DNA of 64,000 nucleotides, from NCBI GenBank assembly GCA_002786025.1, contig NHNW01000060.1:124001-188000 (forward strand), in the 5' to 3' direction. The notes under the pieces are model-generated. The model was given only the letters and a program-made list of their open reading frames with translations, was not told where the DNA came from and did not search any database. Positions 8,463-22,702 of this stretch are shown piece by piece (position 1 is the stretch's first letter; each line of letters starts with the position of its first letter). Source of the stretch: Zasmidium citrigriseum (Eukaryota; Ascomycota; Dothideomycetes; Mycosphaerellales; Mycosphaerellaceae). The position numbers were made by a program, and so were the translations under genes.

Positions 8463-11400
8463 ATGTCGCCCTCCAAAACTTCCTCCCAGTCCAAGTGGTC
8501 GGTGGAATACGACACTATCAAACGAGAGCAGCTCTTTCGCGATCCGCCCAGCAAGAAGTCGGCATATCCTCAATTGCAGGAAGCGATCAAACCCCATGTG
8601 GAATCCTGGAATTACATCTTCGCCGAGAACGGACAGCTGCAGCATGGTCTGAGAGATATTGGGACCAAGACTTTTCTGGATGGCAATGGGCAAGAGGAGG
8701 GTGTGCGGAGGAATAGACTGCAGGTCAGAGTGAGGCAGGTCTTCTTAGACAAGAGCACTCTACCACACACAAACAAGGTGGAAGCGGTGAAGAGAGAGAT
8801 TTTGCCAGTCGAGTGCAGAGAACGACATGCGACATATCGAGGGCGGTTTCGAGGGCGATTGGAATATCGAATCAACAATGGCGAGTGGAAAGAGACGGTA
8901 CGCGACTTTGGACATCTTCCAATCATGCTGCGATCGAATCGATGTCATCTGGAAGGACTGTCACCGAAAGAGCTGGTCAACAGACGAGAAGAGACGGAAG
9001 AGCTGGGTGGATACTTCATTGTGAATGGCATTGAGAAACTCATACGGATGCTGATTGTGAATCGGCGAAACTTTCCTATGGCCATCATCCGACCTTCCTT
9101 CGAGAATCGAGGACCTTCATATACCAAATACGGTGTGACGATACGATCAGTACGGCCGGACCAAACATCGCAGACGAATGTGCTGCATTACCTGAGTGAT
9201 GGCAACGTCACGTTCAGATTTTCGTTCAGGAAGAATGAATACCTCGTACCGGTGTTAATGATTCTGAAGGCTTTGACGGAGACCAACGACCGAGAGATCT
9301 TCGAGGGGATCGTTGGACCAGCAGGTGGAAAGGGCCTTGACAGCAAGCAGTTCGTCACAGACAGAGTGGAGCTGTTACTTCGGACATACAAAGCCTACAA
9401 CATTCACAGCCGATCGAAGACGAGAGCGTATTTGGGGTCGAAGTTCCGAGTCGTGTTGGGAGTGCCTGAGGATCTGAGCGATGAGGAGGCCGGCACAGAG
9501 TTCTTGAGGAAGATTGTGATGCCGCATTTGGGATCCTACGATGTTTCGGAATCGAACGATGCCGACAAGTTCAGAATGCTGCTTTTCATGGTTCGGAAAC
9601 TTTACGCACTGGTCGAGGGCGAGTGTACTGTCGACAACCCCGATGCCGTCCAAAACCAGGAGATTCTTTTGCCCGGCTTTCTGTATGGTATGCTTTTGAA
9701 AGAGCAAGTCGAAGAATGGCTGGGATCGATAGGCCTGAGCCTTCGAGAATGGGGACGAAGTAATCAGTGGCCGTCTTTCACGAGTGCGCAATTTGAGAAG
9801 GACTTTATGGCGAAGGTGATTCGGAAAACGAACGAGAATCTGGGTCAGAAGGTGGACTACTTCCTCTCGACCGGAAATCTGGTCAGCCCCAGTGGACTGG
9901 ATCTACAGCAAGTATCGGGATTCACGGTTGTCGCAGAAAAGATCAACTTCTACCGATTCATCAGTCACTTCCGAATGGTACACAGAGGAAGCTTCTTCGC
10001 TCAGCTCAAGACTACAACCGTTCGAAAGCTGCTGCCAGAGAGCTGGGGATTCTTATGTCCCGTCCATACCCCTGACGGATCGCCTTGCGGTCTGCTGAAC
10101 CATCTCGCACACAAATGCAAGATTGCAACATCAAATACCGACGCATCAAGCGTACCAGCTTTGGTCGCTCAGCTTGGTGTTTCAAGCGCTTCAGAAGCGA
10201 CGCTCAACGACAGCGTGTGTGTGCAACTGGACGGACGAATACTGGGATTCTGCTCGCCGAAGCAGGCAAAGACTATTGGCGATACCCTCCGATATTGGAA
10301 GGTCGAAGGCACACATGGTGTTCCTGTGGACCTCGAGATTGGCTACATCCCTCTTTCGAACGGCGGTCAATATCCTGGTGTTTACATGTTCTCAGAAGCC
10401 GCACGGATGACACGACCGGTGAAATATTTGCCTCTAGAAAAGCAAGATATGGTTGGGCCATTTGAGCAGCCTTTCATGTCCATTGCTTGTACGGAGACGG
10501 AAGTGGCATCTGGCGATTCTACCCACGTCGAATACGACGTCACTAACATTCTGTCCATCGTTGCGAACCAGACGCCCTTCTCGAACTTCAACCAGTCCCC
10601 TAGAAACATGTACGTCAAGCAAAACCCCCAAGCCGTGTCAATGCTAACATCTTTTCTTCTAGGTACCAATGTCAGATGGGTAAGCAAACAATGGGAACTC
10701 CCGGAACGGCTCTCAAATACCGAACGGATAACAAGACCTATCGACTACAGACTGGTCAGACGCCGGTTGTCCGAACACCGAAGCACAACGATTACGGACT
10801 CGACAACTTCCCCAATGGTACGAATGCTGTCGTCGCTGTCATCTCATACACTGGCTACGACATGGACGACGCTATGATCCTGAACAAGTCTGCACACGAG
10901 AGAGGATTCGGTCATGGCACGATCTACAAGGCCAAGAAGATCGACCTGGCAGAGGAGAACAAGCAAGGCCGAAATCGATCAGCAGTCACTCACGTATTCG
11001 GCTTCGCACCGGAGAGCATCATCAAGGCGCAATGGCGGGAGACGCTGGATGATGATGGACTTCCAGCAGTTGGCATGAAGGTCAAGGAGGGAGACGCGAT
11101 CGCTGCATCGTACTCTGTCGTTAAGGACCCTCTCACGGATGAGTATGTCAACAAAGATGGAGTCACCCATATTCACAGATACAAGGACTCCGAAGAGGCC
11201 TTCGTCGAAGAGATCAAGCTCATCGGCAACGAGTCTGGAAACAACGACCCCTGCCAAGCCGTCAGCATCCGCTTTAGAATACCTCGTTCGCCAGTCATTG
11301 GTGACAAATTCTCATCACGACACGGACAGAAAGGTGTCTGCTCACAGAAATGGCCGACCATCGACATGCCCTTCACCGAGAGTGGAATGCAACCGGATGT

Positions 11401-22508: not shown

Positions 22509-22514
22509 AAAAAA
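22509..22514 (-). terminator. Pol III terminator of tRNA-Val
   Basis: A run of six T on the minus strand about 30 nt downstream of the tRNA-Val 3' end, the expected RNA polymerase III stop signal. Confidence 0.6.
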
Positions 22515-22542: not shown

Positions 22543-22702
22543 TACAAGATGCCGGACTCGAACCGGCGGCCTTCTGCGAGACTCGAACCGAAGCTAAGCT
22601 TCGTGCCTTGTTAGGCAGACGTGATAACCTGAGTGAATTGTTAGATTTAAGGTTGTGGTCTGACTTGCAGCAGATGACACTAACCAACTACACCAATCTT
22701 GC
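22543..22702 (-). tRNA. tRNA-Val (AAC) with anticodon intron and a D-loop insertion
   Basis: The 160-nt gene folds as a standard tRNA only if two inserts are removed. The acceptor stem is GCAAGAT with ATCTTGT, with G1-U72 wobble. The A box TGGTGTAGTTGG and the B box GGTTCGAGTCC are intact. The anticodon stem is TCTGC/GCAGA with loop CTAACAC, anticodon AAC. The T stem GCCGG/CCGGC is perfect. Insert 1 (22608-22579, 30 nt) lies between positions 37 and 38, the canonical place for a tRNA intron. Insert 2 (22684-22629, 56 nt) interrupts the D-loop. It begins GTTAGT, has TCTAAC 12 nt before its end and ends CTCAG, like a spliceosomal intron. GGTTA is repeated at both edges. The gene may be a pseudogene unless the D-loop insert is removed. 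Confidence 0.85.

Follow-up and report, generated by a model that had tools for sequence, protein, structure and literature searches.

Introduction

Textbook accounts assign the removal of tRNA introns to a protein endonuclease and a ligase, the enzymes for ordinary nuclear tRNA genes being the Sen2/34/15/54 endonuclease and a Trl1-type ligase. Spliceosomal introns and U6 introns are already known kinds of intron, and introner-like elements are known from relatives in the Mycosphaerellaceae. To our knowledge, no tRNA intron of the spliceosomal kind is known, and the open-licence literature matches listed (without bioRxiv and most subscription journals) did not describe any tRNA gene with a spliceosomal intron.

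Several described systems come close to the arrangement found here in Zasmidium citrigriseum, in which tRNA genes are split by short inserts. Ordinary nuclear tRNA introns also interrupt tRNA genes and are found at 37/38 of many of the same genes, but they are recognised by fold, whereas the new inserts lie elsewhere and carry spliceosomal signals. Introner-like elements of the Mycosphaerellaceae likewise represent spliceosomal intron gain in the same fungal group, though the inserts described here share no sequence beyond the level of shuffles. For Cyanidioschyzon merolae, ectopic and permuted tRNA introns are described, including introns in D- and T-loops (PMC3978253), and a large share of the tRNA genes is disrupted there as well; they are attributed to processing of the bulge-helix-bulge type, whereas the present inserts show no excess of such folds and combine GT-AG ends with a branch site. 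The U6 gene of Schizosaccharomyces pombe and of other fungi carries an intron of U2-type mRNA build within a Pol III gene, and the fission-yeast intron is spliced according to PMC10484740. The three U6 genes found here have one such intron each, at one site, whereas the tRNA genes have up to three at many sites. Spliceosomal introns are also described in fungal U3 genes (PMC5832005) and in fungal rRNA genes; these are U2-type introns of fungal non-coding RNA genes, but not of tRNAs, which must fold precisely and have their ends processed separately.

Structure of the tRNA-Val(AAC) gene

The stretch of DNA that was analysed, termed the window, comprises 64,000 nt of Z. citrigriseum (contig NHNW01000060.1, positions 124,001 to 188,000) and carries on its minus strand a tRNA-Val(AAC) gene that is interrupted twice (22543..22702). 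Read on that strand, the gene runs GCAAGAT TG GTGTAGTTG, an insert of 56 nt, GTTATCAC GTCTGCCTAACA, an insert of 30 nt, and CGCAGA AGGCC GCCGGTTCGAGTCCGGC ATCTTGT A, with the acceptor strands GCAAGAT (22702-22696) and ATCTTGT (22550-22544) paired. The 56-nt insert (22629..22684, minus strand) follows mature nucleotide 18 in the D-loop and has the build of a U2-type GT-AG intron, with GTTAGT at the 5' splice site (22679..22684), CTAAC at the branch site (22640..22644; branch A at 22641, 12 nt short of the final base) and CAG at the 3' splice site (22629..22631). It reads GTTAGT...AAATCTAACAATTCACTCAG with CTCAG as its last bases, and GGTTA stands at both of its edges. An earlier note made from the letters of the window had described a D-loop split by a spliceosomal-type insert with these ends, this branch distance and this edge repeat, and the description was confirmed throughout.

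The second insert (22579..22608, minus strand) is an ordinary 30-nt tRNA intron at 37/38 by ARAGORN with the intron fixed at that position, although its ends may slide by one base; a second B-box-like sequence, GGTTCGAGTC, lies inside it. ARAGORN called the spliced gene tRNA-Val(aac) at a score of 112.3 with the 30-nt intron in the anticodon loop, which agrees with the note's statement that removal of both inserts restores a tRNA-Val. In the unspliced gene no tRNA was detected by ARAGORN without introns or by Rfam, and ARAGORN with introns allowed returned a wrong tRNA-Cys(gca) at 105.0. Both internal promoter elements are intact, as the note had held. The A-box TGGTGTAGTTGG (22684..22695, minus strand), assigned by its consensus, is whole in the DNA because the G that closes it is also the base that opens the intron, and the B-box GGTTCGAGTCC (22554..22564, minus strand) was recovered whole by the B-box pattern search. 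A run of T6 on the minus strand (22509..22514) is a likely Pol III terminator.

A self-splicing intron of group I or group II was considered and rejected. No catalytic fold of either group was matched by Rfam in 451 bases around the gene, and the inserts of the genome-wide set are only 48-78 nt long, with a mean folding z of 0.15 (30 inserts). Elsewhere in the window, the Aur1 protein has 87% identity to its Cercospora kikuchii counterpart, 81% to that of Zymoseptoria brevis and 94% to its best match, and the nearest named match of the RPA2 C-terminal ORF is from Aureobasidium melanogenum (83%, with 84% of the query covered). These matches point to a dothideomycete, probably of the Mycosphaerellaceae.

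Genome-wide distribution of split tRNA genes

The genome searched comprises 44.4 Mb in 148 contigs. With the whole window gene as a DNA query, the only matches at E <= 0.001 were two further tRNA-Val(AAC) genes (L002 and L003), both split at the same D-loop site by introns unlike that of the query gene, and L003 carries a second insert in its T-arm. The Rfam tRNA model gave 42 matches at E <= 1 and 43 at E <= 10; 17 of the 42 belong to C41 and C51, two AT-rich contigs that are taken to be mitochondrial from their composition. Inspection of 11 weaker matches revealed eight tRNA genes cut by GT-AG inserts (L035-L042), the other three (L034, L043 and L044) not being cut tRNA genes; L043 was dropped as a tRNA, as no removal gave one. 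A B-box-plus-terminator pattern added more genes and yielded 67 rows (several per site where the T-run is long) vs two with the reversed pattern.

Candidate regions were then scanned with as many as three GT..YTRAY..AG stretches (44-85 nt each) omitted and the remainder scored by ARAGORN, where GT with G5 or A3, an AG end and YTRAY at 5-30 nt from the end were demanded and position 6 was free. The 66 scan windows leave out L030 (on the AT-rich contig C49) and keep a tRNA-like repeat family that is not counted as tRNA. Removal improved 19 of the 66, 15 of them to a score of >=108, as against 1-8 improved and 0-6 reaching >=108 with 18 decoy motif sets on the same windows, so that rescue by removal of these stretches was more than chance.

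A total of 20 split tRNA genes with 32 inserts were obtained, or 21 loci with 34 inserts when the tentative L075 is included, which has an ARAGORN score of 100.9 and two T-stem mismatches and stands outside the count of 20. The census is incomplete, with genes split in the T-arm under-counted. The 20 genes comprise Val-AAC (3), Val-CAC, Leu-CAG, Lys-CTT, Arg-CCT, Arg-TCT, Met-CAT, initiator Met (2), Thr-CGT, Ala-TGC (2), Gly-CCC, Gln-CTG (2), Gln-TTG, Pro-CGG and Asp-GTC. Inserts were located in the 5' strand of the acceptor stem after nucleotide 4 or 6, in its 3' strand (Lys and Arg-CCT), at 9/10, in the D-loop, in the anticodon stem or at its base, in the variable region, and in the T-arm at 53/54, at 54/55 and inside the T-stem. 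None of the mapped junctions of the split set places a spliceosomal-type insert at 37/38, and many split genes have a 37/38 intron too. Three introns each were found in Gln-TTG and, in the chosen parse, in Arg-CCT. That the window insert would have at least 31 counterparts, spread over many positions of 20 genes in all and present in both initiator copies found, had not been foreseen by the earlier note.

Two loci called for a choice of parse. L037 can be read with two or three introns, and the latter was adopted because its third branch distance fits the other introns, although this leaves four G-U pairs among the seven of its acceptor. The second initiator-Met gene, L098 (C72:184912-185024), holds a GC-AG intron (GCGAGT..TTCTAAC..CCAG) in the D-loop and a GT-AG intron in the anticodon stem. 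Both were placed by hand from the match to the other initiator gene, since a GC 5' site is outside the scan, whose best parse was a poor tRNA-Thr; the spliced form reaches an ARAGORN score of 117.5.

Structural organization of the introns

The inserts range from 48 to 78 nt in length with a median of 54 nt, and 30 of the 34 fall between 50 and 59 nt. They begin with GT in 33 of 34 cases and with GC in one (L098), with G at position 5 in 33/34 and T at position 6 in 26/34; GTAAGT is the commonest start (10/34), and GTTAGT, as in the window, occurs in 5/34. The 3' ends are CAG (23/34), TAG (8/34) or AAG (3/34), with C or T before the AG in 31/34. The branch site is CTAAC in 23 and CTGAC in seven of the 34, and the branch A lies 10-13 nt from the intron end in 30/34, with 5-30 nt allowed by the scan. 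The inserts thus have the features of U2-type introns, namely GT-AG or GC-AG ends and a near-fixed, short branch distance. A similar build was observed in the one mRNA intron compared, the 53-nt intron of the gene for the Pol I subunit RPA2 in the same window (10610..10662, plus strand; GTACGT..GCTAAC..TCTAG).

The earlier note had also suggested an introner-like element, and this part of its reading did not hold, whereas a spliceosomal D-loop intron beside an ordinary 37/38 intron did. In the genome search with the whole gene, the window insert had no match outside the tRNA-Val genes at E <= 0.001, and the inserts are unlike each other, the best insert-to-insert similarity among 30 inserts being 11.5 vs a mean of 9.8 and a maximum of 13.5 in 30 shuffles. 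An introner family was therefore rejected.

U6, 5S rRNA and other Pol III loci

Three U6 loci were detected, on C117 (L113, C117:112082), C72 (L114, C72:164981) and C59 (L115, C59:490950). Their matches of 42.2, 40.4 and 30.7 bits, respectively, lie under the Rfam cut-off of 44 because each is broken by an insert of mRNA type. The inserts are GT-AG stretches of 58, 56 and 58 nt at one junction, between GGCC and CCTGCACTAAGGATGACAC, and T-runs lie directly downstream of all three genes. The introns of L113 and L115 hold a tRNA-type B-box sequence, GTTCGAATCCCC.

The 25 strong 5S rRNA matches (78-92.5 bits, 119-121 bases; three weaker ones stand outside this count) are dispersed and uninterrupted. 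Their integrity also makes it less likely that Pol III genes were misassembled in general; as another Pol III class without inserts, the 5S rRNA genes also count against the spliceosomal-intron reading.

Two further groups of loci were observed. L071, L074, L079, L080 (several in a row), L083 and L084 are tRNA-like repeats with an A-box, a B-box and a T-run (CTGATCTGGTCTAATGG...GGTTCGACTCCGG) and no steady anticodon arm, and are perhaps a SINE-like or non-coding Pol III family. In the B-box loci L076, L085, L088, L089 and L090, a common GGTAACTAT/GGTGACTAT..TTTC stretch is accompanied by a purine-rich region of GCGA repeats upstream of the B-box. No tRNA was found in them, and they are possibly another small Pol III RNA.

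Conservation of the split genes

Once the inserts are removed, the split loci have a tRNA fold and an anticodon, with 95.6% of the stem positions paired in the drawings of ARAGORN (20 split genes) vs 97.7% in 16 genes of this genome that are not split. Pairs of related copies differ by compensatory double changes, counted by eye: three between the acceptors of the Val-AAC genes L001 (GCAAGAT/ATCTTGT) and L003 (GCTCGAA/TTCGAGT), two between those of the initiator Met genes L041 (AGCTGAG/CTCAGCT) and L098 (AGCTTTG/CAAAGCT), and one between the T-stems of the Ala-TGC genes L042 (TTGGG/CCCAA) and L099 (TAGGG/CCCTA), where the intron separates the two strands. Such changes across introns are understandable only if selection acts on the joined product. 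In the Val-AAC trio the exons are kept and the introns diverge, the mature parts being 89-97% identical and the D-loop introns 58-59% identical per column, with shuffles at about 49%. An acceptor mismatch is retained in L038, L042, L056 and L099, and the B-box of L042 and L099 is cut by the intron at T54/T55.

A T5 run lies within 60 nt downstream of all 21 split loci (L075 included), among them all 14 that were first found by searches without a T5 demand. No T5 was observed inside the 3,838 bases of split-gene bodies; as shuffled introns would lead one to expect 1.9, with a probability of 0.14 of finding none, this avoidance is not significant and carries little weight.

Search for intact copies

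The three Val-AAC copies and the two initiator Met copies found are all interrupted. When spliced sequences of 14 of the 15 isoacceptors served as DNA queries, with the best 10 and then the best four candidate regions scored, only pieces of split loci and no intact copy were retrieved. Ten isoacceptors were queried in the first round and four more, together with the third Val-AAC gene, in the second, Lys-CTT being in neither. Two new loci emerged, the second initiator gene and the second Ala-TGC gene, and the longest ungapped piece was one of 58 bases from Thr-CGT at its own locus. The known loci of Gln-TTG, Pro-CGG and Asp were not listed in the 10-isoacceptor search, nor was L003 in the second, so that short exons are missed by such searches, although a whole 72-nt copy should show.

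Six uninterrupted loci share an anticodon label with split genes according to ARAGORN, namely L044 (Gln-ctg), L078 (Gly-ccc), L079 (Ala-tgc), two in L080 (Val-cac) and L083 (Lys-ctt); identity between these loci and split genes with the same label is 47-65%. Five of the six lie in or near the tRNA-like family or have an odd anticodon loop. Their labels are weak because L079, L080 and L083 are members of that family and because L068, a near twin of L044, was called Gly-gcc or Lys-ctt; L044 could nevertheless be a true intact Gln-CTG gene. On account of these six loci, the claim that only split genes serve an isoacceptor is limited to initiator Met and Val-AAC. Among the uninterrupted loci off the AT-rich contigs, none was called Met, nor Val-aac with the intron fixed; L032 was called Val-aac only with a floating intron and Ile-tat with the intron fixed at 37/38. 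Intact copies might be hidden in DNA missing from the assembly, or might have escaped the first look.

Discussion

Taken from sequence, the evidence points to a functional tRNA-Val(AAC) gene in the window whose D-loop insert is a spliceosomal intron of the U2 type. In all, 20 genes would hold at least 32 introns of this kind, and we put the probability of this reading at about 0.9. Pol III would transcribe the whole interrupted tRNA gene, the spliceosome would remove the GT-AG introns of 48-78 nt as it does the U6 intron, and the tRNA endonuclease and ligase would separately remove the 37/38 intron where one is present. The three U6 loci with their mRNA-type introns provide a precedent within this genome. 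With the spliceosome and the endonuclease acting on separate introns, one precursor would thus be served by two splicing systems.

If the interrupted loci were intron-hit pseudogenes instead, working tRNAs would have to come from intact genes elsewhere, and the incomplete census of a 148-contig assembly, the scoring of only the best candidates in the searches and the six uninterrupted loci with the same anticodon labels leave some room for this. Yet the stems have been kept by compensatory change across introns and pair at close to the level of unsplit genes, the exons and T-runs are kept as the introns diverge, both initiator-Met and all three Val-AAC copies found are interrupted, and the six same-label loci resemble the split genes at 65% identity at most. 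We therefore consider pseudogenes very improbable, and the earlier note's option of a dead gene is likewise unlikely, given that no intact Val-AAC copy was found and that the stems are maintained. Removal of the inserts by the tRNA splicing endonuclease, in the manner of the ectopic introns of Cyanidioschyzon merolae, deserves about the same small credence. Introns in D- and T-loops are known in that species (PMC3978253), and 37/38 introns reside in many of the genes split here. In a simple pairing count over 30 introns, which is not a full fold, there were, however, 48 central-helix pairs vs 44.0 in shuffles, and a full 4-bp central helix in three of the 30 introns vs 1.9 by chance, so that the bulge-helix-bulge at the insert ends that the note had raised as a competing sign showed no excess. 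Furthermore, we know of no requirement of the tRNA endonuclease for GTNNGT, for CTRAC at 10-13 nt or for YAG.

Transcription by Pol II within longer RNAs, followed by processing, would suit the fact that spliceosomal introns normally belong to Pol II transcripts, but T-runs lie directly downstream of all 21 split loci and likewise of the three U6 loci, and the window gene keeps its A- and B-box, which makes this the least probable of the three alternatives. Under the preferred reading of spliceosomal introns in Pol III-transcribed tRNA genes, the interruption of many tRNA genes, including both initiator copies found, implies that protein synthesis is probably spliceosome-dependent. It is likely that cytoplasmic translation depends on the spliceosome through tRNA in this way, with initiator Met and Val(AAC), and probably Asp, Gln-TTG, Pro-CGG, Thr-CGT, Arg and Ala-TGC, encoded solely by Pol III genes that each carry one, two or three spliceosomal introns, and with many precursors using both the spliceosome and the endonuclease.

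If true, this would add a third route for the removal of tRNA introns, besides the endonuclease and self-splicing. If confirmed, it would mean that tRNA genes of such genomes are overlooked by gene finders, as at the window locus, where neither ARAGORN without introns nor Rfam gave a match, and that short, folded Pol III transcripts can be handled by the spliceosome in large numbers. It would also tie protein synthesis to splicing and would offer a natural test of intron invasion into new gene classes.
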